A program made the position numbers and the translations under genes. From contig CAIIXF020000007.1 of assembly GCA_903813345.2 (NCBI GenBank), positions 21,563,564 to 21,627,563 on the forward strand: a stretch of DNA of 64,000 nt, read 5' to 3'. The notes under the pieces were generated by a model that worked only from the letters and a program-made list of their open reading frames with translations, did no database searches and had not been told where the DNA came from. Positions within the stretch are counted from its first letter, which is position 1. The number at the start of each line of letters is the position of its first letter. Of the stretch, positions 3,610 through 51,300 are shown piece by piece. This stretch comes from Owenia fusiformis (Eukaryota; Annelida; Polychaeta; Sabellida; Oweniidae).

Positions 3610-6600
3610 CAAGCAGAAAGCGAGGGTAAGACCATAGATGTCGGGGAGGTTATGAACACGTGGGTGGAGCAGATGGGATACCCTGTCGTGACGATTACAC
3701 GAGATGGAAGCATCGCCAATGTCAAGCAGCAGCATTTCTTGATTGATCCAACGCAGGAACCAAGTCCAAAATACCCCAGTGCATTCGGGTAATCACAAAA
3801 TACTATATAAACTACATGCACCAGGTCGTTCAATAAGTTCACGGAAAAATGCTCTCATTTCAAAAGCTTTTAATATTTTTCATGAATTTTGCACATAAAA
3901 TCCAAAAGATTACCTGGTAATTGATTCTTAAAATATCATAATCTGTGATTTGATTGGTCAAAAGTAATGGTTAATATGGTAACTTGACTTTCGGGTTTAC
4001 GGTCGGGGCATTTTTATGTCACAATAGAAAAAACAACAGGATAGAATCGCCTGCATTTTCTCTTTTCTGCTTTCAAAATATGCTACTACTTCTCAAAATT
4101 ACATGACATTAATGTTTTGTCCCACGAGGTGTTCAAAGTTCTCTCCTTGTGTTATAATTAAACACACACATGTTATGGTGTTTAACAATTTGATGATACT
4201 GTGTACTGAAGCCTCTATGGAACTTGTTGGAGAGGCCATTTTGACTGCAGTTGCAAGTTCTTGTGTTGGTCCATAAAGTACATGTCTTAACTCATCCTTC
4301 ATCCTGTTTAAAAACAGCAAATTCAAGGATTGCCTCATCACAGCATCTTCACAATACACTTTCCTAAACCGATAAATACTTTTTCTTGTTTTGTCTGCCC
4401 TCAAAGGTCACAGAATCTTATGGCAGCTCGGATCGGTGAAAGCTTCTCTTCTTTTGGAATTTCAGCCATCTTGGAACCTCTCAAGTATGACTTTGTTTGA
4501 TGATGTCATGAGCAATCTATGTGATATAAAGTTATGAACTGTGATTGTGGTGTCATTTAGTTGTTTTACTTTAACCAATTGTAATTTAAACGAGAAAGAA
4601 TAAGATATAGTAGGAAAATAAGCCTTCATTTGCAAGCATTGCTGGATTTCCGTATTGGTGTATTGTGTGACGTAAAGTGCCCCGCCTACCCAAAAGTCAT
4701 GTTACCATATTAGCCATAATCTTTGTCCAATCAAATAAGAGATAACAGATATTTTATCAATAACCAGATATTAGTTGAATGTACCAGTATATATTAAAAA
4801 ATATTAACAACCTTTGAAATGAGAGCAGTTTTCCATGAACTAAGTCTTATTGAACGACCTGTTATATACATTTATGTGAAAATTAATAGTGACTATATTT
4901 CGTTTAATATTGCCCATTTGGGACATTTATATGTATCATGTAAAACCGGGTTTACCAGGGGATTTTGTATCCTACGAAGTCAAATGATTAAGCTGGACAA
5001 GTTTGTAGAGTGACACTTTCTACAAGCTTGGCTGCTATTACAAGTTATACACATGCTATCATCATCTTTTCCTTTTGTTTTTCTACAATTCCAGGTACAA
5101 ATGGCATATTCATCTAAGTTACACAACTGCATCTCAAAGAGCTTGGGAGACCCCTTCTACGAAATGGATGCCACTAGTTGAAGGTATTACCCCTATCATG
5201 ATATGGTTCCATATTACTTAAATTAAAAACATCAAAAATAATATATAGATTAAACAGTATGGATCGAAAGTGACAACCATTTAGTTAGTGAGTTAGTGAG
5301 TGGGAGGGTGGGTGGGTGGATGAGTGATTGAGTGAGTTAGTTAGTTAGTTAAAATAGTTTATCAAAGTCACACACACATATTATCCAATTTAAAGAAATA
5401 AAATAAAATACAATTCAACATATAGTCCAATTCATATTGTTGGACTGTAGACCGCCTGACACACCTGCTGATATTACAAAAGTTATTTTCAGAAATGACC
5501 CTAACGGGTCTACCAGCAGATTCAGCTGATTGGGTTCTTGGAAACGTACAACAAACTGGTTATTACAGAGTAGATTACGACAGGGCCAACTGGCAAGCGC
5601 TTACTAAGCAATTAAAGAACAACCACTTGGTAAGTCCATTTCCAATTCCATGTTACCGAGGAAATACTAAAGGACAGCAAAGATCGTTTCATGTATCCAT
5701 GTTCGAATTGGTCTAAATCAACACATTTCTTCAAGTAATTCGATCATCGTGAAATTTAAAAATTCTGGCACTTTAGAAAATTATGAGTTTGTTTATTCAG
5801 ATAATTACCCTGTTGTATCCAAAATCAAGTTATTAGACAGCTTACCCGAAAATACTTTTAACCTTTATATAAATTGCAGGCAATACATATGAACAATCGA
5901 GCCCAGTTGATAGATGACGCGTTTAACCTTGCCAGGGCAGGCATACATAATGTAGATACAGTTGATGCGATGGAGACAACCAAGTACCTAAGCAATGAAA
6001 GAGATTATATTCCATGGGAGTCAGCCATTGTAAATCTTGACTACATCCGAAAGATGCTTAGCAGTACGGCTGCATATGGTGAATTTAGGGTAATAATTAT
6101 ATCTAAAAAACATGGTTATATCCACAATGGCTTTATTGTTCTGATTGTTATATATGACATCTAAAGAGTCAATAATATATATATATATAATAATTAAACA
6201 AGTCACGATACACTAGTCAATGGACTCGTTAATTGTTTGAGAGCACTAAACCTCGACATTCGGCCTTGGTTTAAGACAGGTATCAATTCACTTGTGATAT
6301 ATTTCACAAACAAAGCATCGATTTCTGTTAACCCAAAATTAGTTTAACCTTTTGTTTTATATTAGACATACATGCTGCATCAAACGCTCCCCCTATACGA
6401 GACCCTTGGATGGAACGAATCTAATAGCAATCCACATCTTGACCAGTAAGGACTGTAATTAAATGCATGTTTGGCTTATATTTTGCCAAAAGAAAATAAA
6501 AGCGCTTAGTACAAAATCGAGTTTAGAAATGTATATGACTGTCACCTGTACATTTGATTGAATTTTGAACTTTTGAAATATTCCTCATATTAATAGTATA

Positions 6601-11875: not shown

Positions 11876-11969
11876 GTAATCTATGATATTTGGGGGTTTC
11901 CCTCCTTTTATTACACACTGAAGAATATACATGTTGTTACGTCACTTCCGTTTCGAATTTGTGGTGCTT

Positions 11970-14890
11970 TTACATAGTGCCAATGTTGAAACAGTTGTCC
12001 ACGCCTGAAAAGGACAATCATTTTAAACAGATATTATTAGTTGGGATGCCACGTTGAATTGTACGATTTTTCAACATTTCTTAAATCATCGTTTTTTTTG
12101 CATTATCATGTTTACTCTGACAATGAAAAATCATTTTCACACTGGGGAAAACGGGGCGAAGTTGAATTGATTCTGGAGCAGAGGGATATTTCTTCAAATT
12201 GTTTCCAACATTATTGTCAAACATTTTATTGTTTGAACAAAAATTTTACCGACACAGTCAGATATAATCAATCAAAATATAAATTGATGTCGAGCATTTT
12301 TTTTATTATTCTGTACAAATAATGTATCATGCAACAGTATGCGTTTTTGATAAAACGTAAACACAATCGATAACTCCTGTAAAACATGTGGCGTTATTAC
12401 ACAGCGCAGAAACCTACCCCAGTGGTTGCACAAACTCTGGAACATGCCGGTTTTCCTATTGTTGTCTCTCAAGCATTCACCAAACCATGACATCTGAACG
12501 TCTTTCCTGTGTATGAGTCCATAGCCTACTTCTGCACATTCGAAGGCGTCGCCGATTGGGACCAATGACTCCGTTCCAGATGTCCCTTCTGGAATAACGA
12601 CAACGTCGACCTACAAATAAAATACGTATTTGATACGATGAATAGTCTGATTCAATTTTTCCTGATTTCTGGAAGTGTTTGCAAGATTACCATGGAATCA
12701 TTTTGACCGAAATCCGCCAATTTCATATAAAGATATGTATAAAACAGCATATGATGCATATAACCGATGCACATTTCCAAGTCTGCTGTCCACTAGGCAT
12801 TCTCGTCATAATTAGCTTGTCTCTATTGACCTTATGACCCAAGACATAGCCTATGAGATTATGTGTAGCCACAATATGGCTGGCCATCTGGACCAGTGTA
12901 TCGTCATACTTTTAACGCCGTAAAAATTACCTTTAACTCCGTAAAATCAAAAACAATTTTGTACGACGTCAAAAAGTGGTGTCTTCTATCATACCTTCTC
13001 TTCATTCAGTGCTTGGATAACGTCTTGCCAACCATCTTCGATTCGGATTTCCAAAACATCGGAATCTGCAACCTGGAAGCCATTTCTACGTGCGCAATAC
13101 TTGTCCATGAACCAAAACTGTCGAAATCCTGGAATCAAGAAATTAAAATTATGATTCAAAAATCAAAATGTTCGTGAATGGGATAACTGTATACACTAGT
13201 CTGTAAAAAATCAGGTGACGTAGATTGAGACCTACAGGTACATGCAGGGGTGCATTCAGAAGTACACATAGTGTTAAAGGCCAGGTGGAATATCAAAGTG
13301 AATATCACATAAACATACATTGTTGGACAGTGTTCATTAATCAATTTATTTTGCTAAGGATTACCATATTCATATATTTTGGTTTTTATTCTACTCACCG
13401 ATCGACTTTCCGGGAATATCCATAACGCTTGACACTCCCGATCCTGGACGAGTGAACATACGTGACTTGTCGACGGACAAAAACGGACTGGTGAAGTTGA
13501 GGATGTTGAGAATGTCTCGAATAGGAACCCAACCGACACAAGCGTCAAAATGGCGATCCATTAACCCTATGATCATGAGTGAAACAAGAATGATTCTATA
13601 ATATTGGACATCAAAATCTAGAAATATGTGTGGTGGGAATCATATCATCTAAATATCGCATTAAAAGTTTGACGATTAGTGTCTTTTTCTATTGTATTAA
13701 GTTATCACCAAAGAAGGTGAGCAATACCTCTTTGGTATAACCCAAACGCATATAATAATATATAATATAAATTGGTATAACGCATGTAATCGTCAGAAAT
13801 ACGGGGAATCATCCATATTCTAGGGCCATTTGTAATCTCGTTTTAACGATCTTTTCATATTCCATTTAATATTTATATGATTGGCTATTATTCACTTGAT
13901 CAAGTCCTTTTCAAGTTAATCGGTATATAGCTTACCAGACGAGGTGAGCTCCTCCTGGTTAAAACATTTGTCAAGGTGGTCATCGATGAAGACCGTGTCG
14001 CATTTCTTATCACAATGGGAGCAGACTGCAGCAATAAGGTCGTGGAAGAAACCTACTGAATCGCCGCTAGTCTCATCTCTGGAAAGATTATACATACACG
14101 TGTTTAGGACAATCTATCGCATCATTCAGTTTGCGTCCCTTTGGACGCACATCTTTTCAATTCATGTTCATTTATATTTTAATAACTTCAATAATGTTCG
14201 GTATATGATCATGAAATCAATAGTAGTTTCGATTTTTAAAACAATCAATTGATATATAGCTTCAGCTACTATTTCTAGTAAGTAATGAACGGTATTATTT
14301 GAGTTTCCGTGCTACAGGCCAGATCTACAATCCTCTTATGTAACTTACTGAAACGTGTATGGTTTCCAGTTTCCCTCAGTGGCAAATAAGTATATTCTGA
14401 AACAAAATATTTTAAATGTAATATTCAAATGATTTTTTAAAAATGTATTTGAAAATTCTTTCCTGTAACACAGCACAGCATAAAGAGATCCTTTTTATAA
14501 CATGGAAAGGGCAACAATACGTTAGAGGCAGTCAAATTGTAGATCCATTTATAAAAGGAAATTTTACGAGAATTGTACATCCATTTGACGGAAGAGGATT
14601 GTACGAGATACCTGTATGTGTATATGATGAACATTTTAGATTGTTCATTATTCATTGTTTTCTTGGTTTTCTGAAACTACGCGAGACCAAGTGAGATTTA
14701 TTTTCCAAATTGGTTAGCCACGCCCATGGTGTGTACTCAATGGATCAGTCACATTAATATACAATAGAACTAACTTGTCTTTTTTATTGTCAGTCGTAGA
14801 ATTCGTTGGTGGAACTTTCGAGGGCTCATTCGGTAGTCTAATACATGCCTGCGTCACCCCTACTAACAATAGCAGAATTGTCAACTCCAT
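11970..14890 (-). CDS. Secreted type-2 periplasmic-binding-fold protein (SBP_bac_3-like)
   Basis: Seven exons read 5' to 3': 14775-14890, 14349-14396, 13936-14078, 13399-13566, 12995-13128, 12418-12610, 11970-12004. All splice phases agree and the sum is exactly 278 codons plus TAA. Residues 1-15 (MELTILLLLVGVTQA) form a signal peptide. FATEGNWKPYTFQDE near residue 43 followed by VGFFHDLIAAVC matches the opening of bacterial solute-binding family 3 (T-x-G-x-W/Y-P-P-y-x-f-x-D, then G-F-x-x-D-L). Later come MDRHFDACVGWVPI and FTSPFL (the D-x-x-x...F-S-x-P-Y block), DIPGKSIG (D-L-x-G-K-x-I-G), GWQDVIQALNEEKVDVVVI and a closing TGMFQSLCNHWG. This is the same fold as the glutamate-receptor ligand domain, but no membrane segment is present. 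Several Cys residues suggest disulfides. The ligand is unknown; amino acids are the family's common ligands. Confidence 0.85.
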
Positions 14891-24379: not shown

Positions 24380-27300
24380 CTTAAAATTTGCATGATACAT
24401 TTTAAGCGGGGAAATTTCAGGAAGCAATCGTTTCACACATGATTAGCAAAACCATTTCAAAATGTAATATCTATAGATAGATTTTAAGCGGGGAAATTTC
24501 AGGAAGCAATCGTTTCACACATGATTAGCAATACCATTTCAAAATGTAATATCTATAGATAGATCTTAAGCGGGGAAATTTCAGGAAGCAATCGTTTCAC
24601 ACATGATTAGCAAAACCATTTCAAAATGTAATATCTATAGATAGATTTTAAGCGGGGAAATTTCAGGAAGCAATCGTTTCACACATGATTAGCAAAACCA
24701 TTTCAAAATGTAATATCTATAGATAGATTTTAAGCGGGGAAATTTCAGGAAGCAATCGTTTCACACATGATTAGCAATACCATTACAAAATGTAATATCT
24801 ATAGATATACATAATACCTTAGTCGTTTCTTGCAGAGAATAACTATTAGAATTATGATCACGAGGAAGAAAATTCCGCCAATAGTCCCCAGTACCACAGC
24901 GAGCAATGCCTGGATGTTCAAGTCCGCACAATACCTGCCTGCGTACATGAAGTTGCAACTGGAAATAACACAACACGATATGATCAAGAATATAGGATAT
25001 TATCTAGATTTTGTGCATAGGCATAGATACAGTTAATTATTTTGAAGTGATGCTTTCCTCCATAGCTACAAATTCTAAGCATTTGAAAACACACCTCAAT
25101 GATACACACAGCTCAATGACCGTCATTATGCACTAAATGATGGAATTAAATACAAAGGAAATGCACAAAACCTTTTTTACCTGCATGTTGGTGAATTATC
25201 TTCTTCTACACAGACTCCTCTATTCTGGCATGCACTTTCACTTTCATAGATGGAGCATACAGTACTGATGGCAACTGGAACGTTGAGAGAAGTAAACACT
25301 AATCATGATACATAGTCAGTTATATGCTTTATGATGCTCTGGACAGCTCGTTGCAACTAACTTTTGAACTATATTACTAGTTTTTAAGTGATCTTACACC
25401 TCGGTCGCAATTGGGCTGATGTCTGGGATTTGACGTGAGTATGGTCACATTAGATACGAATGATACGGGCTCCGTACGTCACTTGTCGGATTAAATCGTA
25501 CGGACATCTGAAAGATACTATGGGGTGCCCATGCGACTATCGTTGACGATGACTGAACCGTCATGATGACCGTACGGTAACCACACAATGTCCTGTTGGT
25601 AGATTCTCATGAGTTTGTCAGAAAAATCAAAAAGACATTGTTGACGTATATCTCCGTAATAAAAGCCCACCTTACGACGTCTCAAATTAGGCTGATGGTG
25701 GCCGATGATCTCCAACGCCCGTTCGGTTCCCCAACTTGGCGGCCGATTTTGGCCAAAAAACTCATTGGCCGGCGCCGCATCGGAAATCGGTTCTAATGTG
25801 ATTGAGGTATTAATGGAATATGTTTGAAATTACTATTATATTAAATAAGTAGAGGTATTAATAACTGTGATTTTGTTCGTTAACTAACCTTGTTTTCCAT
25901 TTTGCTCTACAGTTGGGTCTCCTTTTACAACATACGCACCCCCATCAGAATCAGTAAGACTACCCCCTCCTTGTTCAATGGAAGAGATAAGCTCTAAGGC
26001 AATGTTCGATTTACTCTCGGTATCCAGTGTAGAGTCATATGTGACATCATGCTTTACCCCTAAACTCCCGTCACTGTCAATGAAAAAATCGAATAACAAT
26101 AAAACTATTATGTAATTGCTCATATTTGAGAACTGCTTTTCCACAGCAATTTCCGTTCTTACGATAATCGTGCATTCTAATACTGATGGATATTCTCAGT
26201 GTTGAAAGGAAAGTATCCATTAATTAAACTTAGTCTAGTAATACCACTTATCTATATGTATAATAGAACCCACATATGCACTAATAAAAAATAGATGTCG
26301 GTTCAACTTACTACAATTCTATGATGAGCACAGAGGCGAGTGTGATTCCCCTCACTCGGTTGTAGATATTGAAGAACTAAAATAAAGTTAGTATCAAATT
26401 AAAAGCGATAAAGGCTCCTTTAGAATTAGCATGTACCTATATAATGTTATATAGGAATACATCTAAGATATATCTCTTAATTAACATACAATTGAATAAT
26501 ATCTATGCTTACCATATTTGTTAGAGTCTTATTTAAGGCAATTGTTTCTGTATTGTTGGGGTTGTCATAAACACCAGTTTTAAATGTCATTTCAAACAGT
26601 ATATTTACTGTGACAGTATTAGCTGAAATAATGTTCAACATGAATCATGAAATACAAGAATGACTTTATCAACTAATAATTACTAATAATATATGATTTT
26701 GACAATCCTACCTTGGTTGAATGCGTTAAAGATTACAAGAGTAATTGTGTCAAGGCATTACATGTGGAGTATTGGTTATATCCATCAAAGAATAATTCAC
26801 AATTACCTGAACTGTTTCCCACAGGTGTAGTTGTAACACCTGTAGGGTTTTGTGTGGATTCTTGAACATTAAGTGTCGATATTTCATCCGTAGTTACTGG
26901 TATTGTAGCACTTGTGTCATTTGCTTGTGAAGTTGTAACATCTGAACTTCCAAATGTTAATGTTGTAACACTTGTTGCATTTGGTGAAGATGTTGGTGTA
27001 GATTCAGATGTAACATTTGCAGTAGACATTGTATTAGTGGTTGGTTCATTGTTGGTTGTTATTGTGGTAACTTCCAGGCATGTACCATTGATCTGCACAG
27101 CAACGTATAGGATGTTTTATAAACTGTCATTGTTGTTTCTATTTTATGGTTCGTAAAAGTGTCAAAATTATGTTTGACTCAACAATTCTAGCGGAGTGAA
27201 ATTCACATTTGACAATTTATAACATCAATTACCAAATACGAGGGTTGATCATAAAGTTCTCATAATATCTCTCTAATTTCTTTGTTTTTCAATATACTCT

Positions 27301-30300
27301 AATGAAATTTTCACAGAATGTGCAGCTTAGAATGTCTTATTAATTCAGCAAAACATATTTAGTTCAACAGAAATATTTAATAAGAAATGGTTGCCATAGT
27401 AACTGGAAATCAAGGCACCCGGGGCAAATAAAAATAATTGAGAGAATGAGCTTAATTAACCATGTTTGCATACATAATAAACTCTCTCATGAATTATCAA
27501 ACACGTTAAAATGTTAACTTGGATATGTTGTAAAGTGCTTTAACAATGATATAAATCGATCGTGTAAATTGTGTGATATCATAGGGGATGATTTCATGCT
27601 TCATTAGATGTGATACCACAGTCTGAGACTCAAAGCTAATGATCAGAAATGACTGAGTAAGAGAATGCAGTGGATGCAGAGATCTTCAGAAAAATAAAAT
27701 TCATACTGATAAAATGTTATGTTAAGTTTGTAAGATCCTTTGGTCAGACTAAACATGATCTAAAACAAATATATTGCTAGATATCAACAAAATTACACGT
27801 TGTGTAAGGTCTGTATATGTTAAAATTGAACTAAAGGGGCAAAATCAATTTTCCTCGGGATACTTGACAAAACAGTCATGGGGTCCAACAGTCACTTCTA
27901 ATGAAGCATAACAATCATCCATTATGAGATAACACAATCCACATGACCATTATAATAGTTCACAACGATCAAGAGCACATATTATTTGACAATTTAATGT
28001 GTTTGATAGCTTATTTGACAACTTATTATGTATTTAAACATGGTTAATGGGGGCTAATCTAGCTAGTTTTTTTATTTGCCCCGGGTGCCTTGATTTCAAG
28101 TTACTATGGCAACCATTTCTTATTTGATGTTTCTGTTATTCTAAATCTTTTTTGCTAGAACAATAAAACATTCCATGCTGCACATTCTAAGAAAATTTCA
28201 TAGGAAAATATTGAGAAATAAAGAAATTAGAGAGATATTATGAGAACTTTATGATCAACCCTCGTATATCTCGTCATTGGACTTTCCTGTTGTTGTAATG
28301 ATTAGTCAAATAGATTATTTGTATTTGTTGTGGATATTTAATTAAATCACGTCGATTAAATATTACAAAATAGATGGATGTTCAAACTTGCAATACCTTT
28401 GTATAGCCCCCTTCACAAGAGCATATATAAGAGCCTGGGGTATCGGTACACACAGCATTTTTTCCACATGTGCCGTTGCCGCATTCATTGATATTTTCGC
28501 ACTCTGTACCATTGCCATCATATCCAGATTTGCATGTGCAGTCAAAATATCCTTGTGTGTTTGTGCAATCAGCATTTGGATCACAAGGTTGCAATGTGAC
28601 ACACTCGTTTATATCTACAGTAGTTTGAAAAATGTTTACAAATGAATGAACTGCAGACTAAAAGGTATCATGATAAGCTTCTCTTACTTTTCAAAGTCAT
28701 CAGTTTTAATGTTATATACTTTGGACAACTTTATTTGTCAAGTCTGAAAAAATAATATGGAACCTGAATGAATTATTTAAAGATCAGTGACAAGTCTATG
28801 CCAGAAAACTGGTTTGTTTTACTCACCTACACATTTAACTACATCACCATCCTGTTTATATCCTGCATCACATATACACGCATAGGATCCATTATTGTTA
28901 ACACATTCAGCATTATCACCACATATTGTAGAGTCAGCACATTCATCTATATCTTCCTCGCAGTTCTCTCCTCTCCAACCTGGTACACAGTCAGTACAAC
29001 CTATGCTGGAATTGCATTTTCTGGCTCGACTACCACACTCACAGAGGTTTGCACAGGCAATGCCCCAATGTGAGGAATCACACACTAGAATAAGAATAGT
29101 ACACATTCATCACAACAAATGCTTGCATCGTATCATCCGGCTCAGCTACTACATTAACATAAATCAGCCCAGTCAATGTCCTAATGGAGTCACACCTCGC
29201 AATGGATTCCTTACATATGAATAACATGATTTATTTAAATTACTCGTTGTTTAGTATCATACCATTGTCAACGAAGTATTTGTTAAATGAATTTATAAGA
29301 TATGACTATGAGTACATGTTCGTAATTGAAGTTACCTTGACATGACTTTTGATCATGGCCTAGCTGAAACCCTGTATCACAAGTGCACTGAAAACTACCA
29401 TCGGTATCTGTGCACCCTCCAGCACATCCATGAGAACCAAGATCACACTCATTTATATCTGCAAAAACGAACAATGTCATTTAACGATATCCAAAATATC
29501 ATTTTCCTCCCCATAATATAAAGTTTAAATTCACACGGTGGTAAACTTTGTAAATGTTATTCACCAAAAATGACTTAAATATTAACTGTTGACCTACTTG
29601 TACAATTTTCAGCATCGGTAAGATTATATCCACTCTTACAGAAGCATACTGGTGGATCTGATGTATTCCTACATCCATATTCGCAAGTTAATCCTTTGTC
29701 CAAACAAGGTCCCAGGGACTCCTTATCTACAAAAACATTTGACCATCATTATCATCAAAAGAATTTAAAATGATTTGGTTTACAATGTATGATTTGTTAC
29801 TAGTTTTTTTTTTTTTTTTTTTTTTTTATAAAATCAAACTTTATTAATAAACATATTTTACAGTGCATGCATACAATTAGATAAAATACAAAAAATACAA
29901 TTATAGAAATTTCAAGTTACATTACATCTTTCTGATCATTATCTCAGTATCAAAAATGGCTTTTACATTACAAGCTGTATTGACCCTTTTTTTAAAATCA
30001 TGTATAGATTTTTTAATTACCAATGTTTTAAGTAAATCTTCTTTTTTAACAATTGCATTTCCAATTTTTTGATCATTTGTAACATTTACCTCATTCCAAA
30101 TTGATTTAATACAGTCACAATTGATAAAGAAGTGGTCAATGACATCTTTTACATGTGCGTTACAAAAGTTACAGATGTCAGAGTTTTCTATGTTACATTT
30201 CTTCAAATAAATATTTTGAGGGTAAATACCATGTAAAATTTTCCATTGAATTACCAAAAGGGTAGTATCGGTTGTACATTCAAAAAACTGAGACCAGACT

Positions 30301-33300
30301 TTATCGTTTAGAATCTCACCATTAAATTTTACTTTTTTTGTTACTAGTTAATCTTGATGTATTTTTCTGCAATCTGGGATTTGCCACTACTATATATTGC
30401 TTAATTTGAGTTGTTTTTTCAAATTTATTTTGTACTTCAATAACCCCATTAGAAAGAGGATGGTATGTGGTTGTTAATTACTCCACAAGAATAATACGTA
30501 TAATGGCAAATAACTCTCTGCTTGAATACCTCTTTGACAGGATTTTCCATCTCCATTTAGTGAAAATCCATCCTCGCAGCTACATGTGAAATTGCCCTCA
30601 GTATTGTTACAACTCTGTTCACATCCACTCGTTCCTTCACTACACTCATCAATATCTATATAGAAGACATTCACAAGCTTTATTTCATATCGCTCTCGCA
30701 AAAAAGTTTCCTTTGGCTTATTTCAAGTTGTTTATTACATGTATTGCTTGAGCATAACCAAATTGCATTCTCGATTCATTACAATGAAGAAATGAAATAA
30801 TATCAAAAGTGGCTGCAGTTGAAACAATTTTCATCTTTTTACAAGAAAAAAGTGTTATAATTATTTTACCTTGACACTGTGAGGAATTAATGGCTGTGTA
30901 CCCTGGTACACATTCACAATAATAACCACCCTTCGTGTTGATGCATTCCTGTTGACAGTTATTTAGAGTAGCGTTGACACATTCATCAATGTCTATAATA
31001 AATATAGTGAACAAAATATCATAAAGGTAAGTGATTACTGAAGAATCGTTTATTCATTTACTTAAATTGCATGTTCACTCTTGTTCACTGTGCTATACGA
31101 AAGCAAGTGATGCAGATATCATGTGCGCAAGGTGCGGATATTAACGGTAATTTTTGAATTTGTGATATTTCATAAACTAAGGTATGTTGGGTACTCAATT
31201 ATGTTCATCCCTTTGTAGAGGATACCTAATAAAAGGGGAATCATGTCTTTCGTTGTATTCTTCATTCTTTAACGACGCACTTAGCATCCATCCTTGCTCC
31301 ATAGCAAAGAATTTGAAAATGCTTCTTTATTACATCGTTTACAGCCTTCATTCAGTATTGTTGATCGAGATTTTTTTTTTTTTTTATAAAAACTATATTT
31401 CAAGAATAAAACATATATACAATTATACATTATACATAGGCCTTATTACATTGTTTAATTTCTGTACAGTTTTTCTTTTTCAAAATAAGCAAGTATATTT
31501 CCAGTTTTGTCGATATTGAAGATTTGTATTGCCCTCCTGGCTATTAACACTTCTTTATAATTCTTATACTTATTAATTCCTATAATTTGCTCAAAAGTGA
31601 TATTATCAAAAAATTTCCATATATCCCTTATTTTTGTACACTCATAAAAATTATGTCTAACATTGTCAATAACATTACAATTCTCGCAAAATGAACTATC
31701 TCTAATTCTAAAACGATTTAAAATCTCATTACATGGATATATGTTATGTAATGTTTTCCAGTGAATAATTAGGAGTTTGGCATCTACTTTGCACTTGAAA
31801 GCTCTAAGCCAAGTTGCACATGAAATATCCTTACCATTATACTGTAAAATCAATTTTCTTTTATCTGTACATAGTTTTCTAAAATCTGATGTTTCATAAA
31901 ATGTTATCTCTTTACTATTTAAATATAATTTGAAATCATCATCTGCTTTTACATTACCATAAAGTAATATTACATTTCTATTGATACAATTTGAAAGACC
32001 AATGTATTGTATTAGTGTCAAAGGATTCCTACCAATAATCCTAGATATTTCGCCATATGTCATTACTCTATCATTGGTTACAATATCACTTACAAAATTT
32101 ATACCTTTTGCGATCCAATTTGTAAAACATATTTTATTTCCACTTATTTTGAACTTTTCATTATTATATGTTGATCGAGATGACCAATCGATATAAATTA
32201 TTTTTGCAATTTGAGTGTCATTCACTTTCTGTGTGAATTTTTAAAAAATTGAAAACATTTATTGTTTAGAGGTAGCACATTTTTGTTTAATGTTTCCCTT
32301 TTTGTATAAAATCACGCAGAAACCTTTCAACTTTCAAAATTAAAATATAATTTGTATTGATAGGTCATCTCGATCACCAATATTGAGCTGTTTACACTGC
32401 GAAACAGCTGCAATTTCAAATTATTAGCTTCGGAGAGAGCATCATTGCTTAATGCGTCGCTATTGGATGAATTACACACCTACCAGATCGTTCAATAAGT
32501 TCATGCAAAAACATTCTCATTTTTTATTTTTCAATGTTTTTCCTTGAAACTTTTACAAATCAAAGAAAAAACCTAATCATTGAAAAACAAAAAATAAATT
32601 ACTTTGTTATGATTGGTCAAAAGTTATGGATGCTATGGTAACCCGTGTTTTGGTCACGCTGGACAATATTTTCTCTTTGCGAATCCCACCATTACCTTTT
32701 TATAAGGGAACCTGTACACATCATCATGACTGTATGAATATAATTGAGTACCCAATATGCATAAGTTGGTGAAATATCACGAAATTAAATTAAAAAATGA
32801 CCATTAATATCCGCACATTGCGCACATGATATCCACACCGCTTGTTTTCGTATAACACGGTCTGCATGAAGTGTTTTAGTTAAACATTATGAAACCAAAC
32901 GATTCAGGCCCGGATGGAACATGGGTTTGTGATTTCTCTGGAGCTGCATTCTGTACCTACCAATGCATTTGTAGTCAACAGGAATAGTGCCATCGGGACA
33001 CTGTGAACAGTTGAATGAGCTGCCAGTTATCTGTTGCTCTGATGGCGTAACATCTGTGCAGTTAGAACCCTCACCACAGGGTTCACCTTCGCAACCATCA
33101 ATGTCAACCTCACAATTTTCTCCTGTAAGAAGAATTCTTAAGTATATCATAGTTAGGCATAGAAATAAATTGTTTAATCTTGGGCCATTAATCCATGGCG
33201 TCTGTCCTTCAACTTAACAATGAAGTCGTTATGAACACTCTCAAAAGAGACCATATCCACTTACCTTCCCAGCCTGTATTACAATCACACATCGCTTCAT

Positions 33301-39300: not shown

Positions 39301-42300
39301 TTTTGTTATAATTGCCGAGGTCATATAACCGGGATAAAACAATGATTATCGTTGACTGCCCACACACAAAACATACGTGGAGTGAACAGTGTTATTACAA
39401 ACAACAGGCTTTAGAATACAAAGCGTAGTGTGATAATAAGCTGTACACTACCACTGCTGCATGTCCATATTACTAATTTACTAGGGCTCCCAAAGAGTGG
39501 ATAGAGAGGTTGTGTTTGTCACTTTTAAATTTTACATTTCAAAATTGTCATTTTACATGTCATAATTTGTTGGTTTCATTCGTTTAGCCAATCAAAACAT
39601 TGTAAAACAATAAATTGTCTGTTACGTACAATCAATTTTGTTCAGTTTTGATTAGTTGTCAGAATAAAGTTACGTTCATTTGAATCCATGCATCAAAACA
39701 AAAATCCTATTTTCACTTCAAAATACTTCAGTGAGATGAAGGCTCGGAATTGTCACATGCAATAATTTATTGTCGTATTCGTTATTTTATCTTTTCGATA
39801 GTAGCATTTAGTCGCACATTTGATGCCAGGTCACCTTGTCGCGTACCTCTTGGGGAACCCCACATTTATGTGTGTACTCATGGAAGTAAATTCCCCGGTG
39901 TAGCCGAGAGCCACAAACTTTTCAACAGGTTCGAAATGACCAATTTCTCTCATATATACTCTAAATATTTTATTATTTAGCACCTACAAAGTATTGCTAA
40001 TAACCATATGTAATTTCAATAAGGAAACTTATCTGGCTACATATAAATTCAATATCAACACTAGCTGTTCTCTCAACACGTCCTGGCTTACCCTGTGGTG
40101 ACAAACCCTGGATTTTCGCTATTTATAGTTTATCAACACCTGGACGCATGCGCATTTTATAGTTTATCGGGCACTTTAAAATATTTTTCATCTCAGTTGT
40201 ACAGTTAACCAGAGGTGTTGCACTTATAATCATGGCTTAAGCAAGAAAATCGTTTTCAATTGAACATAATTGTTGAAGTTTGAAGTAAAAATATTCAACA
40301 CATGATTCCAAAAAGGATTAGACACAACGATGTTAAATCAAGGCTCTGATTCGTTTGAGTTGAATCAAGTTAAATGCTAAAAAGCAAAATGTATGAACAA
40401 CGGTGTGTATGTATATTAATTTGCCATTTTCTATTTTCAATTTTTCTTGTAGTATGGATCTACTATCTGAAGGATATAGGAGAGTTGTATAGGTTAAGAA
40501 ACTAACCTACCTGAGGTTCGGTATTGTTAGCGTTGTTACCATTTAAGTAGCCGCACCATGAATGGTATTCAGCTTTTGGATTGTAGCAGTAATATGGATA
40601 TGGGAAAACATCCTTCCACGTTACTTTCATCATCCAGGTTGCTTCAAAGTCTGCAACATTTGTATACCTCATCACTTCTTTACTCGCTGCTTCGAGTAAA
40701 AGTTGCCCTTTCTCATTCAAGGTATCCTCTCTGGTGTAGCTCTGGTAATAAACACCAGATGGAGACAAACTTTCACGTGTATCATGATCGCCCCAGAACG
40801 AGGCTAAAATAGCTAGATTACGTCTTCCAAGTGGAAACTTCCTGGCCCAATAATTTAAGTATGGTCTTCCAAAACTTATTAATCCGTTTGAAGAAACCTA
40901 TTAGTGCAAAACATTAAATATATATTATTATTTTTTACTGTTAAGATTGCAATTGTTTGATTGGTCAAGACAAGGCCAGATGTCTAAATGATCGCAGTAG
41001 GTTCTTAAAGAAAGTCCATGGCTCTATTCATTTATAGTACGGTCGTAAATTATGGAATAAAGATTATGGGATTACCCGGAGGCCAATTTAATATATATTA
41101 TATATATGCCCAAAGGCCAATGAAATAAAAATATATTTAAGATTGGTCAAATTAGCATCGTGCTTATACATTTATTTAACTCTACCACAGTCCATGTTGC
41201 AATTTTTAAGACGTGAAGTGTCATTTTATTAATAGTTTTACACAGAAACACGATACTCACGTATATGTGTCTGTATTTTCTATGACCAAAGTAGACTCCC
41301 CTTGGGGCGGTAACGGCACTTGATGTTGTATCTAATGCATTCTGAAGCCGCACGTCACCCTCTTCCTCACCACTGGGATACATTTGGAACGTTGTTTCTA
41401 CATTGCAGACAAAATGATAATAATGATACAATACTATTCTCTGACCATTGTCAATTCTACTTTAAAATAAAGTTTCCAAAAACCGAAAGGCCAGATTAAC
41501 TAAAACAGATTTTTTCTTTCGATTTCGCAATAGTGGGTTTATATTTTAAAATCAAATACGTCCTATGAAAACTAATTGAAGAATATGCAAAAATTTAACA
41601 TATATAAATGTACACTCCCCTACATAAGTTTGGCAACCTTTGCTCCCCCATTGAACTACGTGTTAAAGCCTCTTTACGTTTGAATTTTCATTTACTTATG
41701 ACGAAATTACTTATAATATTAATGGAAACGTAACTTGACTTTTTTTCCAATCCTTCCAAATTTTCCCAATTTTTTCCTCAAGTACAATAGGTCGAAAACT
41801 GATGATAAATTTGATGAATTGTTGAAAATCGTCAATCCCATGTAAACCAATGGGAAATGGTGGGTTTTGGGCAAATCAGAAATCAGGATATCTGTTCAGT
41901 AAAAGATTCAGCAAAAAATATTTTTATATAGAAAATTGAATTGTCTAACTTTTTTTGTACACTACGTATTTAGTTTACTTGATGAATACTAAAGTTACAG
42001 AGCTTCAAAGTCATTTTTGAAAATCATTTTTCGCCTCTTGTGTTATATATTGCAATGGGAGGGGTTTTTTGAAAAACAATTTTGACTTTAAAGACCTATA
42101 TCTTTGTAGAACCTGTAGAAACGTATCAATTTTTTGTTAAATAAAGTTAGCCAATTCAATTTCCTACCTAACTTGTATTTTTTGCAAGGACTCGGATGGA
42201 TGGATATTCTGTCAATTGACTTGCGGCAAACCTACCATTTCCCATTGGGTAACATGGGATTGTCAATTTTCAAAAATTCATCTTTATCATCAATTTTCGA

Positions 42301-45300
42301 CCTTGTAATTGAGTAAAAATTGAGGTATTGGAAATAAAGTCAAGTTACGTTTCCATCAATATTATAAGTATCTTCATTGCAGGTTAAGTTAATAAAAGTT
42401 CAAAGGTAAAGAGGCTTTAACACGTAGTTCAATGGGGGAACTAAGCTTGCGAAACTTATGAAGGGGAGTGTATCTATTCGACAACAAGATCAATTGGTGT
42501 AAAATCATCTGAACAAGTATGAACCACTGTTGTAGTACCGTCAGTGGTAGGAGTATCTGCCATTGTTGTAGTAATATCAGTGGTTGGGCCATCAGTCACT
42601 ATTGTAGTGGCTTCAATTGTAGTAGTAAGGTCAATCACTGTTATAGTAGCATCAGTGGTGGTAGCATCAATCACTGTAGTAGTAGCATCAGTGGTGGTAG
42701 CATCAATCACTGTAGTAGTAGCATCAGTGGTGGTAGCATCGGTCACTGTTGTAGAAGTATTAGTAGAAGCACCAGTTGCTGTTGTAGTAGCGTCGGTGGA
42801 AGTACCATCAGTCACTGTTGTGTCAGCTACTGTTGTTGTAAAATCAGCCGTTGTTGCATCAGTAACTGTTGTTGTAGCATCAGCTGTAGTTGTGTCAGCC
42901 ACTGTAGTTGTAGCATCAGCTGCTGTAGTATCTGCCGTAGTTGCGTCAGCCACTGTAGTTGTGTCAGCAACTGTTGTTGTAACATTAGCCGTTGTTGCAT
43001 CAGCAACTGTTGTTGTAGCATCAGCTGTAGTTGTGTCAGCAACTGTAGTTGTAGCATCAGCTTCTGTAGTATCTGCCGTAGTTGCATCAGCCACTGTAGT
43101 TGTAACATTAGCTGCTGTAGTATCTGCCGTAGTTGCGTCAGCCACTGTAGTTGTGTCAGCCACTGTAGTTGTGTCAGCTACTGTTGTTGTAGCATCAGCC
43201 GTTGTTACATCAGCAACTGTTGTTGTAGCATCAGCTGTAGTTGCGTCAGCCACTGTAGTTGTAACATCAGCTGCTGTAGTGTCTGCCGTAGTTGCGTCAG
43301 CCACTGTAGTTGTGTCAACTACTGTAGTTGTAGCATCAGCTTCTGTAGTATCTGCCGTAGTTGCATCAGCCACTGTAGTTGTAACATTAGCTGCTGTAGT
43401 ATCTGCCGTAGTTGCGTCAGCCACTGTAGTTGTGTCAGCCACTGTAGTTGTGTCAGCTACTGTTGTTGTAGCATCAGCCGTTGTTACATCAGCAACTGTT
43501 GTTGTAGCATCAGCTGTAGTTGCGTCAGCCACTGTAGTTGTAACGTCAGCTGCTGTAGTGTCTGCCGTAGTTGCGTCAGCCACTGTAGTTGTGTCAACTA
43601 CTGTTGTTGTAACATCAGCCGTTGTTGCATCAGCAACTGTTGTTGTAGCATCAGCTGTAGTTGTGTCAGCCACTGTAGATGTAGCATCAGCTGCTGTAGT
43701 ATCTTCCGTAGTTGCGCCAGCCACTGTAGTTGTGTCAGCTACTGTTGTTGTAACATCAGCCGTTGTTGCCTCAGCAACTGTTGTTGTAGCATCAGCTGTA
43801 GTTGTGTCAGCCACTGTAGATGTAGCATCAGCTGCTGTAGTATCTGCCGTAGTTGCGTCAGCCACTGAAGTTGTGTCAGGTACTGTTGTTGTAGCATCAG
43901 CCGTTGTTGCATCAGCAACTGTTGTTGTAGAATCAGCTGTAGTTGTGTGTGCCATTGTAGTTGTAGAATCAGCTGCTGTAGTATCTGCCGTAGTTGTGTC
44001 AGCCACTGTAGTTGTGTCAGCAACTGTTGTTGTAACATCAGCCGTTGTTGCATCAGTAACTATTGTAGCATCAGCTGTAGTTGTGTCAGCCACTGAAGTT
44101 GTAGCATCAGCTGCTGTAGTATCTGCCGTAGTTGCGTCGGCCACTGTAGTTGTGTCAGCAACTGTTGTTGTAACATCATCCGTTGTTGCATCAGCAACTG
44201 TTGTTGTAGCATCAGCTGTAGTTGTGTCTGCCACTGTAGTTGTAACATCAGCTGCTGTAGTATCTGCCGTAGTTGCGTCAGCCACTGTAGTTGTGTCAGC
44301 AACTGTTGTTGTAGCATCAGCCGTTGTTGCATCAGCAACTGTTGTTGTAGCATCAGCTGTAGTTGTGTCTGCCACTGAAGTTGTAACAGCAGCTGCTGTA
44401 GTATCTGCCGTAGTTGCGTCAGCCACTGTAGTTGTGTCAGCTACTGTTGTTGTTACGTCAGCCGTTGTTGCATCAGCAGTAGTCATGTCAGCCACTGTAG
44501 ATGTAGCATCAGCTGCTGTAGTATCTGCCGTAGTTGCGTAAGCCACTGTAGTTGTGTCAGCTACTGATGTTGTTACGTCAGCCGTTGTTGCATCAGCAAC
44601 TGTTGTTGTAGCATCAGCTGTAGTTGTGTCTGCCACTGTAGTTGTAGCATCAGCTGCTGTAGTATCTGCCATAGTTGCGTCAGCCACTGTAGTTGTGTCA
44701 GCTACTGTTGTTGTAACATCAGCCGTTGTTGCATCAGCAGCCGTTGTTGCATCAGCAATTGTTGTTGTAGCATCAGCTGTAGTTGTGTCAGCCACTGTAG
44801 ATGTAGCATCAGCTGCTGTAGTATCTGCCGTAGTTGCGTCAGCCACTGTAGTTGTGTCAGCTTCTGTTGTTGTAACATCAGCCGTCGTTGCATCAGCAAC
44901 TGTTGTTGTAGCATCAGTTGTAGTTGTGTCAGCCACTGTAGATGTAGCATCAGCTGCTGTAGTATCTTTGGTAGTTGCATCAGCCACTGTAGTTGTGTCA
45001 GCTACTGTTGTTGTAACATCAGCCGTTGTTGCATCAGCAACTGTTGTTGTAGCATCAGCTGTAGTTGTATCAGCCACTGTAGATGTAGCATCATCTGCTG
45101 TAGTATCTGCCGTAGTTGCGTCAGCCACTGTAGTTGTGTCAGCAACTGTTGTTGTAACATCAGCCGTTGTTGCACCAGCAACTATTGTAGAATCAGCTGT
45201 AGTTGTGTCAGCCACTGAAGTTGTAGCATCAGCTGCTGTAGTATCTGCCGTAGTTGCGTCAGCCACTGTAGTTGTGTCAACAACTGTTGTTGTAACATCA

Positions 45301-48300
45301 GCCGTTGTTGCATAAGCAACTGTTGTAGCATCAGCTGTAGTTGTTTCAGCCACTGTAGTTGTAGTATCAGCAGCTGTAGTATCTGCCGTAGTTGCGTCAG
45401 CCACTGTAGTTGTAGCATCAGCAGCTGTAGTATCTGCCGTAGTTGCGTCAGCCACTGTAGTTGTGTCAGCAACTGTTGTTGTTACATCAGCCGTTGTTGC
45501 ATCAGCAACTGTTGTAGCATCAGCTGTAGTTGTGTCAGCCACTGTAGTTGTAGCAACAGCAGCTGTAGTATCTGCCGTAGTTGCGTCAGCCACTGTAGTT
45601 GGCTCAGCTACTGTTGTTGTAGCATCAGCCGTTGTTACATCAGCAACTGTTGTTGTAGCATCAGCTGAAGTTGTGTCAGCCACTGTAGTTGTAGCATCAG
45701 CTGCTGTAGTATCTGCCGTAGTTGCATCAACCACTGTAGTTGTGTCAGCAACTGCTTTTGTAGCATCAGCCGTTGTTGCATCAGCAACTGTTGTTGTAGC
45801 ATCAGCTGTAGTTGTGTCTGCCACTGTAGTTGTAACATCAGCTGCTGTAGTATCTGCAGTAGTTGCGTCAGCCACTGTAGTTGTGTCAGCTACTGTTGTT
45901 GTAACATCAGCCGTTGTTGCATCAGCAACTGTTGTTGTAGCATCAGCTGTAGTTGTGTCAGCCACTGTAGATGTAGCATCAGCTGCTGAAGTATCTGCCG
46001 GAGTTGCGTCAGCCACTGTAGTTGTGTCAGCTTCTGTTGTTGTAACATCAGCCGTTGTTGCATCAGCAACTGTTGTTGTAGCATCAGCTGTAGTTGTATC
46101 AGCCACTGTAGATGTAGCATCTTCTGCTGTAGTATCTGCCGTAGTTGCATCAGCCACTGTAGTTGTGTCAGCCACTGTAGTTGTGTCAGCAACTGTTGTA
46201 GCATCAGCTGTAGTTGTTTCAGCCACTGTAGTTGTGTCAGCAACTGTTGTTGTAGCATCAGCCGTTGTTGCATCAGCAACTGTTGTAGCATCAGCTGTAG
46301 TTGTTTCAGCCACTGTAATTGTAGCATCAGCTGTAGTTGCGTCAGCCAGTGTAGTTGTAGCATCAGCTGCTGTAATATCTGCCGTAGTTGCGTCAGCCAC
46401 TGTAGTTGTGTCAGCTACTGTTGTTGTAACATCAGCCGTTGTTGCATCAGCCAATGTTGTTGTAGCATCAGCTGTAGTTGTGTCTGCCACTGTAGTTGTA
46501 GCATCAGCTGGTGTAGTATCTGCCGTAGTTGCGTCAGCCACTGTAGTTGTTGCATCACCTACTATAGTTGTTTCAGCCACTGTAGTTGTAGCATCAGCTG
46601 CTGTAGTATCTGCCGTAGTTGCGTCAGCCACTGTAGTTGGCTCAGCTACTGTTGTTGTAGCATCAGCCGTTGTTACATCAGCAACTGTTGTTGTAGCATC
46701 AGCTGAAGTTGTGTCAGCCACTGTAGTTGTAGCATCAGCTGCTGTAGTATCTGCCGTAGTTGCATCAACCACTGTAGTTGTGTCAGCAACTGCTTTTGTA
46801 GCATCAGCCGTTGTTGCATCAGCAACTGTTGTTGTAGCATCAGCTGTAGTTGTGTCTGCCACTGTAGTTGTAACATCAGCTGCTGTAGTATCTGCCGTAG
46901 TTGCGTAAGCCACTGTAGTTGTGTCAGCTACTGATGTTGTTACGTCAGCCGTTGTTGCATCAGCAACTGTTGTTGTAGCATCAGCTGTAGTTGTGTCTGC
47001 CACTGTAGTTGTAGCATCAGCTGCTGTAGTATCTGCCATAGTTGCGTCAGCCACTGTAGTTGTGTCAGCTACTGTTGTTGTAACATCAGCCGTTGTTGCA
47101 TCAGCAGCCGTTGTTGCATCAGCAACTGTTGTTGTAGCATCAGCTGTAGTTGTGTCAGCCACTGTAGATGTAGCATCAGCTGCTGTAGTATCTGCCGTAG
47201 TTGCGTCAGCCACTGTAGTTGTGTCAGCTTCTGTTGTTGTAACATCAGCCGTCGTTGCATCAGCAACTGTTGTTGTAGCATCAGTTGTAGTTGTGTCAGC
47301 CACTGTAGATGTAGCATCAGCTGCTGTAGTATCTTTGGTAGTTGCGTCAGCCACTGTAGTTGTGTCAGCTACTGTTGTTGTAACATCAGCCGTTGTTGCA
47401 TCAGCAACTGTTGTTGTAGCATCAACTGTAGTTGTATCAGCCACTGTAGATGTAGCATCATCTGCTGTAGTATCTGCCGTAGTTGCGTCAGCCACTGTAG
47501 TTGTGTCAGCAACTGTTGTTGTAACATCAGCCGTTGTTGCATCAGCAACTATTGTAGAATCAGCTGTAGTTGTGTCAGCCACTGAAGTTGTAGCATCAGC
47601 TGCTGTAGTATCTGCCGTAGTTGCGTCAGCCACTGTAGTTGTGTCAACAACTGTTGTTGTAACATCAGCCGTTGTTGCATAAGCAACTGTTGTAGCATCA
47701 GCTGTAGTTGTTTCAGCCACTGTAGTTGTAGTATCAGCAGCTGTAGTATCTGCCGTAGTTGCGTCAGCCACTGTAGTTGTAGCATCAGCAGCTGTAGTAT
47801 CTGCCGTAGTTGCGTCAGCCACTGTAGTTGTGTCAGCAACTGTTGTTGTTACATCAGCCGTTGTTGCATCAGCAACTGTTGTAGCATCAGCTGTAGTTGT
47901 GTCAGCCACTGTAGTTGTAGCAACAGCAGCTGTAGTATCTGCCGTAGTTGCGTCAGCCACTGTAGTTGGCTCAGCTACTGTTGTTGTAGCATCAGCCGTT
48001 GTTACATCAGCAACTGTTGTTGTAGCATCAGCTGAAGTTGTGTCAGCCACTGTAGTTGTAGCATCAGCTGCTGTAGTATCTGCCGTAGTTGCATCAACCA
48101 CTGTAGTTGTGTCAGCAACTGCTTTTGTAGCATCAGCCGTTGTTGCATCAGCAACTGTTGTTGTAGCATCAGCTGTAGTTGTGTCTGCCACTGTAGTTGT
48201 AACATCAGCTGCTGTAGTATCTGCAGTAGTTGCGTCAGCCACTGTAGTTGTGTCAGCTACTGTTGTTGTAACATCAGCCGTTGTTGCATCAGCAACTGTT

Positions 48301-51300
48301 GTTGTAGCATCAGCTGTAGTTGTGTCAGCCACTGTAGATGTAGCATCAGCTGCTGAAGTATCTGCCGGAGTTGCGTCAGCCACTGTAGTTGTGTCAGCTT
48401 CTGTTGTTGTAACATCAGCCGTTGTTGCATCAGCAACTGTTGTTGTAGCATCAGCTGTAGTTGTATCAGCCACTGTAGATGTAGCATCTTCTGCTGTAGT
48501 ATCTGCCGTAGTTGCATCAGCCACTGTAGTTGTGTCAGCCACTGTAGTTGTGTCAGCAACTGTTGTAGCATCAGCTGTAGTTGTTTCAGCCACTGTAGTT
48601 GTGTCAGCAACTGTTGTTGTAGCATCAGCCGTTGTTGCATCAGCAACTGTTGTAGCATCAGCTGTAGTTGTTTCAGCCACTGTAATTGTAGCATCAGCTG
48701 TAGTTGCGTCAGCCAGTGTAGTTGTAGCATCAGCTGCTGTAATATCTGCCGTAGTTGCGTCAGCCACTGTAGTTGTGTCAGCTACTGTTGTTGTAACATC
48801 AGCCGTTGTTGCATCAGCCAATGTTGTTGTAGCATCAGCTGTAGTTGTGTCTGCCACTGTAGTTGTAGCATCAGCTGGTGTAGTATCTGCCGTAGTTGCG
48901 TCAGCCACTGTAGTTGTTGCATCACCTACTATAGTTGTTTCAGCCACTGTATTTGTAGCATCAGCTGCTGTAGTATCTGCCGTAGTTGCGTCAGCCACTG
49001 TAGTTGTAACATCACCTACTATAGTTGTTTCAGCCACTGTAGTTGTAGCATCAGCTGCTGTAGTATCTGCCGTAGTTGCGTCAGCCACTGTAGTTGTAGC
49101 ATCACCTACTGTTGTTGTTACATCAGCCGTTGTTGCATCAGCAACTGTTGTAGCATCAGCTGTAGTTGCGTCAGCCACTGTAGTTGTAGCATCAGCAGCT
49201 GTAATATCTGCCGTAGTTGTATCAGCCACTGTAGTTGTCTCAGCTACTGTTGTTGTAGCATCAGCCGTTGTTGCATCAGCAACTGTTGTTGTAGCATCAG
49301 TTGTAGTAATGTCAGCTACTGTTGTTGTAACATCAGCCGTTGTTGCATCAGCAACTGTTGTAGCATCAGCTGTAGTTGTTTCAGCCACTGTAGTTGTGGC
49401 ATCAGCTGCTGTAGTATCTGCCGTAGTTGTGTCAGCCACTGTAGTTGTAGCATCACCTACTGTAGTTGTTACATTAGCCGTTGTTGCATCAGCAACTGTC
49501 GTAGCATCAGCTATAGTTGTGTCAGCCACTGTAGTTGTAGCAGCAGCTGTAGTATCTGCCGTAGTTGCGTCAGCCACTGTAGTTGTGTCAGCCACTGTAG
49601 TTGTGTCAGCAACTGTTGTTGTAACATCAGCCGTTGTTGCATCAGCAACTATTGTAGCATCAGCTGTAGTTGTGTCAGCCACTGAAGTTGTAGCATCAGC
49701 TGCTGTAGTATCTGCCGTAGTTGCGTCAGCCACTGTCGTTGTGTCAGCAACTGTTGTTGTAGCATCAGCCGTTGTTGCATCAGCAAATGTTGTAGCATCA
49801 GCTGTAGTTGTTTCAGCCAATGTAGTTGTAGCATCAGCTGCTGTAGTATCTGCCGTAGTTGCGTCAGCCACTGTAGTTGTAGCATCACCTACTGTTGTTG
49901 TTACATCAGCCGTTGTTGCATCAGCAACTGGTGTTGTAGCATCAGCTGTAGTTGCGTCAGCCACTGTAATTGTAGCATCAGCGGCTGTAGTATGTGCCGT
50001 AGTTGTATCAGCCACTGTAGTTGTGTCAGCTACTGATGTTGTTACGTCAGCCGTTGTTGCATCAGCTGTAGTTGTGTCAGCCACTGTAGTTGTAGCATCA
50101 GCTGCTGTAATATCTGCCGTAGTTGCGTCAGCCACTGTAGTTGTGTCAGCTACTGTTGTTGTAACATCAGCCGTTGTTGCATCAGCCACTGTTGTTGTAG
50201 CATCAGCTGTAGTTGTGTCTGTCACTGTAGTTGTAGCATCAGCTGCTGTAGTATCTGCCGTAGTTGTGTCAGCCACTGTAGTTGTAGCATCACCTACTGT
50301 TGTTGTAACATCAGCCGTTGTTGCATCAGCAACTATTGTAGCATCAGCTGTAGTTTTGTCAGCCACTGAAGTTGTAGCATCAGCTGCTGTAGTATCTGCC
50401 GTAGTTGCGTCAGCCACTGTAGTTGTGTCAGCAACTGTTGTTGTAACATCAGCCGTTGTTGCATCAGCAACTATTGTAGCATCAGCTGTAGTTGTTTCAG
50501 TCACTGTATTTGTAGCATCAGCTGCCGTAGTATCTGCCGTAGTCGTGTCAGCCACTGTAGTTGTAGCATCACCTACTGTTGTTGTTACATCAGCCGTTGT
50601 TGCATCAGCAACTGTTGTAGCATCAGCTGTAGTTGCGTCAGCCATTGTAGTTGTAGCATCAGCAGCTGTAGTATCTGCCGTAGTTGCATCAGCCACTGTA
50701 GTTGTCTCAGCTACTGTTGTTGTAGCATCAGTCGTTGTTGCATCAGCAACTGTTGTTGTAGCATCAGCTATAGTTGTGTCAGCTACTGTTGTTGTAACAT
50801 CAGCCGTTGTTGCATCAGCAACTGTTGTAGCATCGGCTGTAGTTGTTTCAGCCACTGTAGTTGTAGCATCAGCTACTGTAGTATCTGCCGTAGTTGCGTC
50901 AGCCACTGTAGTTGTAGCATCAGCTGTAGTTGCGTCAGCCACTGTAATTGTAGCATCAGCGGCTGTAGTATGTGCCGTAGTTGTATCAGCCACTGTAGTT
51001 GTGTCAGCTACTGATGTTGTTACGTCAGCCGTTGTTGCATCAGCTGTAGTTGTGTCAGCCACTGTAGTTGTAGCATCAGCTGCTGTAATATCTGCCGTAG
51101 TTGCGTCAGCCACTGTAGTTGTGTCAGCTACTGTTGTTGTAATATCAGCCGTTGTTGCATCAGCCACTGTTGTTGTAGCATCAGCTGTAGTTGTGTCTGT
51201 CACTGTAGTTGTAGCATCAGCTGCTGTAGTATCTGCCGTAGTTGTGTCAGCCACTGTAGTTGTAGCATCACCTACTGTTGTTGTAACATCAGCCGTTGTT

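Follow-up and report, generated by a model that had tools for sequence, protein, structure and literature searches.

In the window (the whole stretch of 64,000 nucleotides that was analysed), a gene of seven exons occupies positions 14890-11970 of the minus strand. Its coding sequence, rebuilt from the DNA, has 837 bases, ends with a TAA stop codon and encodes 278 residues, matching exactly the span, the length and the six introns given by an earlier sequence-only reading. Exon 1 (14775..14890, on the minus strand like all features of the gene) starts with the ATG at 14890 and covers codons 1-38 plus a portion of codon 39, which encode a hydrophobic N-terminal stretch, likely a signal peptide, followed by a linker rich in Pro, Thr, Asn and Lys; its donor site reads gttagt. 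The domain starts in exon 2 (14349..14396) with the TEGNWKPYTF motif, including E46 and W49, and continues in exon 3 (13936..14078), which encodes GFFHDLIAAVCSHCDKKC and includes C74 and C81, the cysteine pair seen in the LAO/Arg/His clade. Exon 4 (13399..13566) carries R119, the FTSPF block, the uninterrupted join between the two lobes and the DIPGKSIG motif. The second lobe is encoded by exon 5 (12995..13128), where W164 and F165 are found in ligand-contact columns, and exon 6 (12418..12610), which has VDVVVIPEG, with P210 in the column of the ligand-binding Asp, and the closing NHWG. Exon 7 (11970..12004) adds the final 11 residues, GVDNCFNIGTM, the first codon of which is split by the intron, and the TAA. 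An AATAAA polyadenylation-like signal lies 57 bases past the stop codon (11907..11912), a six-base match that is weak by itself.

The six introns (378, 270, 369, 270, 384 and 413 bases, from 5' to 3') all begin with GT and end with AG, and the G+C content is 0.38-0.49 in the exons as opposed to 0.30-0.36 in the introns. The gene was thus correctly described as an intron-bearing animal gene with introns of the spliceosomal type, and this structure supports the view that it is not a bacterial contaminant. The predicted splicing rests on the intact GT-AG sites and on how well the joined protein fits its family. No credible second copy of the gene was seen within the 64-kb window; a match at 37133-37035 (E 0.035) was judged to be due to chance once its three reading frames had been read.

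Among the Pfam families, SBP_bac_3 was the only one listed at E≤10, matching residues 43-143 with E=3.5e-5. The sequence-only reading had named SBP_bac_3 and Lig_chan-Glu_bd as the profiles for comparison; the first was matched, though its 24.0 bits are under the curated cut-off of 26.4, and the second was not. NCBIfam gave three weak matches to LAO/ArtI models (E 0.0011-0.0093). When the protein alone was compared with the PDB by phmmer, 12 sequences were listed at E≤10, eight of them type-2 binders and four unrelated, and the top five (E 0.0056-0.059) were amino-acid or opine binders, namely AncQR and nopaline- and arginine-binding proteins. A tblastn search at E≤1 found 40 records of a plasmid collection, the best with E 5e-4 and most of them far weaker, with a query coverage of at least 80% in 12 of the 40; among the 30 matches listed, the identity was 19.6-27.4% and the annotated records were substrate-binding proteins.

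Profile-profile alignment with hhalign against ten bacterial binders (profile A2) covered residues 36-267 with a probability of 98% and E=1.7e-13, and both lobes are present in order without an insertion between them, as the alignments also show. Because the ten binders were picked from the tblastn records for their similarity to the query, profile A2 is biased towards it; a second profile was made of 30 loci chosen by Pfam-family score, not by similarity to the query, within four tblastn records. The sequence from residue 37 scored 54.3 bits with A2 and 27.8 bits with the second profile, as against -2.0 and -1.8 bits for the reversed sequence and maxima of 6.6 and 4.7 bits for 500 shuffled sequences, of which HMMER reported 263 and 235, respectively. 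Thus, a free-standing type-2 solute-binding domain, as had been proposed, stands above chance by profiles, shuffles and the reversed control. Single exons reached E 9e-5 (exon 4) and E 0.011 (exon 3) against A2, and were not significant against the second profile (E 1.5 and E 0.33), where an unrelated plus-strand frame at 4376-4534 scored slightly better than either (E 0.23). The family signal is carried by the joined protein, and the exon-by-exon evidence is thin.

The protein shares with bacterial solute-binding proteins of the LAO/ArtJ/HisJ/opine type the full-length domain order, the TEG..PY.F.D and GF..DL motifs, the C-x6-C pair, the FTxPF block, GK-x-x-G and a closing NKW-like motif, at an identity of 17-21% when aligned together with eight bacterial members and up to 28% in pairwise comparison. 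It differs from the LAO-type proteins by the replacement of S/T120 by W164 and of D161 by P210, by three residues missing before R119, by a 7-residue insertion before GLMDRHFD and a shortened second lobe, and by eight further cysteines, introns and no importer partner in view. The claim that nearly all landmarks of the bacterial family are kept goes too far: every one of the quoted motifs is present, but the ligand-contact positions have for the most part been replaced.

The absence of membrane helices beyond the N-terminal stretch is supported by hydropathy. The most hydrophobic 19-residue window is at residues 1-19 (mean hydropathy 1.74), and after this N-terminal stretch no window of 19 residues exceeds 0.98. 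The join between the lobes, FTSPFLSVDKSRMFTRPGSGVSS, which is the pore site in receptors of the glutamate class, is of bacterial length and lies inside exon 4, so that a pore could not be introduced at this place by a splicing choice between exons. Open frames of hydrophobic character within the introns were taken as chance products of AT-rich DNA and not as coding. The signal-peptide-like N terminus, which is putative and was judged by hydropathy alone, together with the richness in cysteine (ten in the 242 residues after residue 36) and two N-glycosylation sequons (N30 and N126), suggests that the protein is probably secreted.

The cysteines C74 and C81 share columns with a bacterial C-x6-C pair located after the GF..DL helix. 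Of 52 bacterial rows, 17 carry this pair, each row having both cysteines or neither, and none of four receptors does; PDB chains of nopaline- and arginine-binding proteins have it as well. When the two columns were removed before building a tree, from which 11 divergent rows were excluded, the 17 pair-bearing rows group as one (92/96), by which the pair appears to mark one clade of bacterial binders, of the lysine/arginine/histidine and opine type. The presence of the pair at the same columns in the animal protein favours an ancestor of the bacterial type. By our own arithmetic, ten cysteines in 242 residues would match two given positions by chance with a probability of about 0.15%, and the high number of cysteines raises the odds of such an accident.

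Local-alignment z-scores, for a set drawn partly from records found by similarity to the animal protein, had a median of 10.6 and a best value of 18.8 for the 17 LAO-like rows, as against a median of 1.6 for the 35 other bacterial rows, the best of which (L050, 18.0) nearly equals the top; rows without the Cys pair make up six of the 15 best scores. The receptors scored 7.0 (Nostoc), 6.5 (GluA2), 1.7 (GluN1) and 0.8 (GluR0). The row scoring 18.0 is a binder from Alisedimentitalea scapharcae (record L007, 302-1078, E 5e-4), one of the better bacterial matches; the sample source of this bacterium was the ark clam Anadara broughtonii, which is perhaps a coincidence.

For the phylogenetic trees, 30 loci were taken from 50 matches, and the partial loci L057 and L061 were omitted from 24 more. 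The animal protein joined GluA2 and NocT in the first tree (85/90) and NocT in the second, from which eight divergent rows were excluded (91/85); in the third tree, made from the set of 52 bacterial and four receptor domains minus 11 divergent rows, it fell into a weak group (15/82). Its terminal branch has about 2.8 changes per site, and NocT (L003/L052), to which the path was shortest in all three trees, lacks the Cys pair. AU tests did not reject a grouping of the animal protein with GluA2 and GluN1, either with the second set (p 0.265) or with the larger set (p 0.533, with a likelihood 1.14 above that of the free tree). A grouping with the 17 Cys-pair rows gave p 0.403 with the larger set. 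The trees do not discriminate between bacterial ancestry and the loss of receptor helices.

A rival reading is that an ionotropic receptor of an animal ancestor, either a glutamate receptor or a divergent ionotropic receptor (IR), lost its helices, and that its ligand-binding core became the secreted protein. Besides the AU tests, the alignment of C77 with a Cys of GluA2 speaks for this origin, as does C272, which is one column off the final Cys in GluN1 and two off that of GluA2, a cysteine that forms half of a receptor disulfide. However, C228, the candidate partner of C272, is 17 alignment columns off the partner Cys of GluA2, and the join between the lobes is of bacterial length within a single exon, as described above. 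Lig_chan-Glu_bd and Lig_chan were unlisted at E≤10, a threshold to be read with the HMMER filters in mind, which drop most matches above about 0.1, whereas all ten bacterial binders of profile A2 matched Lig_chan-Glu_bd at E≤10. The z-scores of GluA2 and GluN1, the only animal receptors compared, are below the median for the LAO-like binders, and the grouping of the animal protein with all four receptors had p 0.03 with the second set, but p 0.244 with the larger set. Unlike the ionotropic glutamate receptors (Lig_chan-Glu_bd plus Lig_chan), with which it shares the overall type of ligand-binding core, the animal protein has neither membrane helices nor the amino-terminal domain, no match to their profiles and low pairwise similarity. 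We consider the loss of receptor helices unlikely; ancestry of the bacterial type appears likelier than a receptor origin in view of the Cys pair and the pairwise similarity.

If the ancestor was bacterial, the transfer would be old, because the bacterial loci are 22-28% identical to the protein. This range holds for the best 80 of at least 121 confirmed loci, mostly of Pseudomonas and Enterobacteriaceae, from a scan of genome contigs with a three-sequence alignment, which gave at least 596 stretches, with only bacterial loci among the matches listed. The same alignment found no locus in viral contigs (78 stretches). Scans with the protein alone revealed no relative in the genome contigs (12 pattern-matching stretches) or the viral contigs (one stretch), and a phage search gave a single match (E 0.9). 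No close bacterial donor was seen among the matches listed in these pattern-based scans. The transfer of SBP_bac_3 genes into eukaryotes has a precedent in the gut fungi Neocallimastix and Anaeromyces, for which bacterial or archaeal donors are reported (PMC11291939). The two cases share the acquisition of the same Pfam domain by eukaryotes, but they differ in that the fungal genes have named donors whereas no close donor was seen for the animal one (PMC11291939).

We describe the binding pocket in the numbering of LAO (positions R77, 120 and 161, as well as 11 and 14), in which we take R77 to be the Arg that grips the carboxylate of the ligand and D161 the Asp that grips its amino group. Position 11, a D/E site, is E46 in the animal protein, and the aromatic site 14 is W49. 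In the column of Ser/Thr 120, where 43 of 52 bacterial rows and all 17 LAO-like rows have Ser or Thr, it has W164. P210 takes the place of Asp 161, which is conserved in 33 of 52 bacterial rows and 14 of the 17 LAO-like rows, Pro being present in three of the 52. F165 and W115 occupy further contact columns. The column of the carboxylate-binding Arg contains Arg in all 28 bacterial rows of the smaller alignment, where the animal protein has a gap, and in all 52 bacterial rows and all four receptors of the larger alignment, where the animal protein contributes R119; with three residues lost before it, the assignment of R119 depends on the alignment. The R119-to-F127 spacing of 8 is shared with GluR0 (PDB 1ii5), the other four rows compared being two shorter; GluR0 nevertheless differs in having no pairwise similarity to the animal protein, which is not a channel.

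Given these replacements, the grip on the carboxylate may be retained, but the canonical amino-acid site is not. The proposal of a soluble amino-acid-binding protein is accordingly doubtful, with two of the three signature ligand residues changed and the third dependent on the alignment. Aromatic residues stand at the contact columns (W49, W164, F165 and perhaps W115), and in three of these columns a small or polar residue is usual among amino-acid binders; together with the change from Asp to P210, this makes a plain alpha-amino acid an improbable ligand. Our guess is a small molecule that bears a carboxylate, or is aromatic or quaternary. Molluscs make opines and betaines in quantity, and these would be natural candidates, again as a guess, were the host a mollusc.

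Replacement of the signature ligand residues would also fit a secreted protein with a structural or matrix role, one that lost binding and retained the fold as a scaffold stiffened by disulfides. The shortened second lobe and the ten cysteines after residue 36 are consistent with such a role, but E46 and the aromatic residue at the Y14 position are retained and R119 is possibly the conserved Arg, which makes a non-binding scaffold quite unlikely in our estimation. A decaying or never-expressed gene copy is improbable: although the gene is present in a single copy within the window, an open frame of 278 codons extends over seven exons with all splice sites intact, and the profile agreement spans residues 36-267. 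An enzyme like the bacterial cyclohexadienyl dehydratase, which arose from the same binder stock, is very unlikely. That dehydratase (5jos) and reconstructed ancestors (5t0w, 5tuj) were among the best 60 PDB profile matches of a query combining the animal protein with eight bacterial binders, but these matches were driven by the bacterial rows, and no dehydratase appeared at E≤10 in the phmmer search that used only the animal protein.

The best explanation is a soluble, probably secreted single-domain binder, encoded by the animal's own gene and descended most likely from an ancient bacterial protein of the LAO/ArtJ/opine clade, a reading to which we give about an even chance. The ancestor would have belonged, long ago, to the clade of bacterial binders for lysine, arginine and histidine, and introns, the eukaryotic-type N-terminal stretch and many cysteines would have been gained since then. 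The two-lobed clam-shell domain would close on a small extracellular ligand. Animals have, to our knowledge, no ABC importer of the type served by bacterial solute-binding proteins; since the protein has no membrane part either, it would most likely act alone outside the cell, where it might carry, store, scavenge or sequester, or present its ligand. More tentatively, and with a probability that we put well short of even, an animal lineage took up a bacterial binder of cationic amino acids or opines, secreted it and rebuilt its pocket with aromatic residues for a new extracellular ligand.

If this reading is true, the protein would be what a bacterial nutrient receptor has become in an animal, in soluble form and outside the line of the glutamate receptors. 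The best-known animal role of the domain family is to form the core of synaptic receptors; a relative that is free and secreted, its pocket rebuilt, would be a second animal use of a bacterial binder, offering an object for ligand screening and for studying the evolution of the receptor module without the channel. We found no report of an animal family-3 binder in the open-access literature, where the papers found to name this protein family all deal with bacteria according to their titles. Some invertebrate proteins carry automated database names of the form "Solute-binding protein family 3/N-terminal domain-containing protein", so that relatives probably exist. Transferrin is a further animal case of the type-2 periplasmic binding fold. 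The claim that animals have this fold only within glutamate receptors was too narrow, as a paper on a marine snail assigns mollusc porphobilinogen deaminases to it (PMC5723588). What is known, then, is the fold, the family and the reported transfer of the domain to fungi (PMC11291939); what is new is the free, probably secreted animal form with an altered site.

The remainder of the window also has the character of an animal genome, with a NIDO exon, a repeat frame and reverse-transcriptase remnants. The nidogen-like (NIDO) exon is at 40502-40897 on the minus strand (E 1e-15). Upstream of it on the same strand, an uninterrupted frame of 4811 codons (42474-56909) encodes repeats of Thr, Ala, Val and Asp with periods of 141 and 282 bases, and the two are possibly parts of one giant mucin-like NIDO protein. 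Two zf-RVT frames (reverse-transcriptase tail) at 29922-30347 and 31455-32240, also on the minus strand, are remnants of the LINE type. A tandem repeat of 82 bases at 24394-24807 has five near-identical copies with 97% matches, and a degenerate array of 15-50-base repeats (TGCAATACAATGCAG) at 1240-2549 leaves several frames open on both strands.
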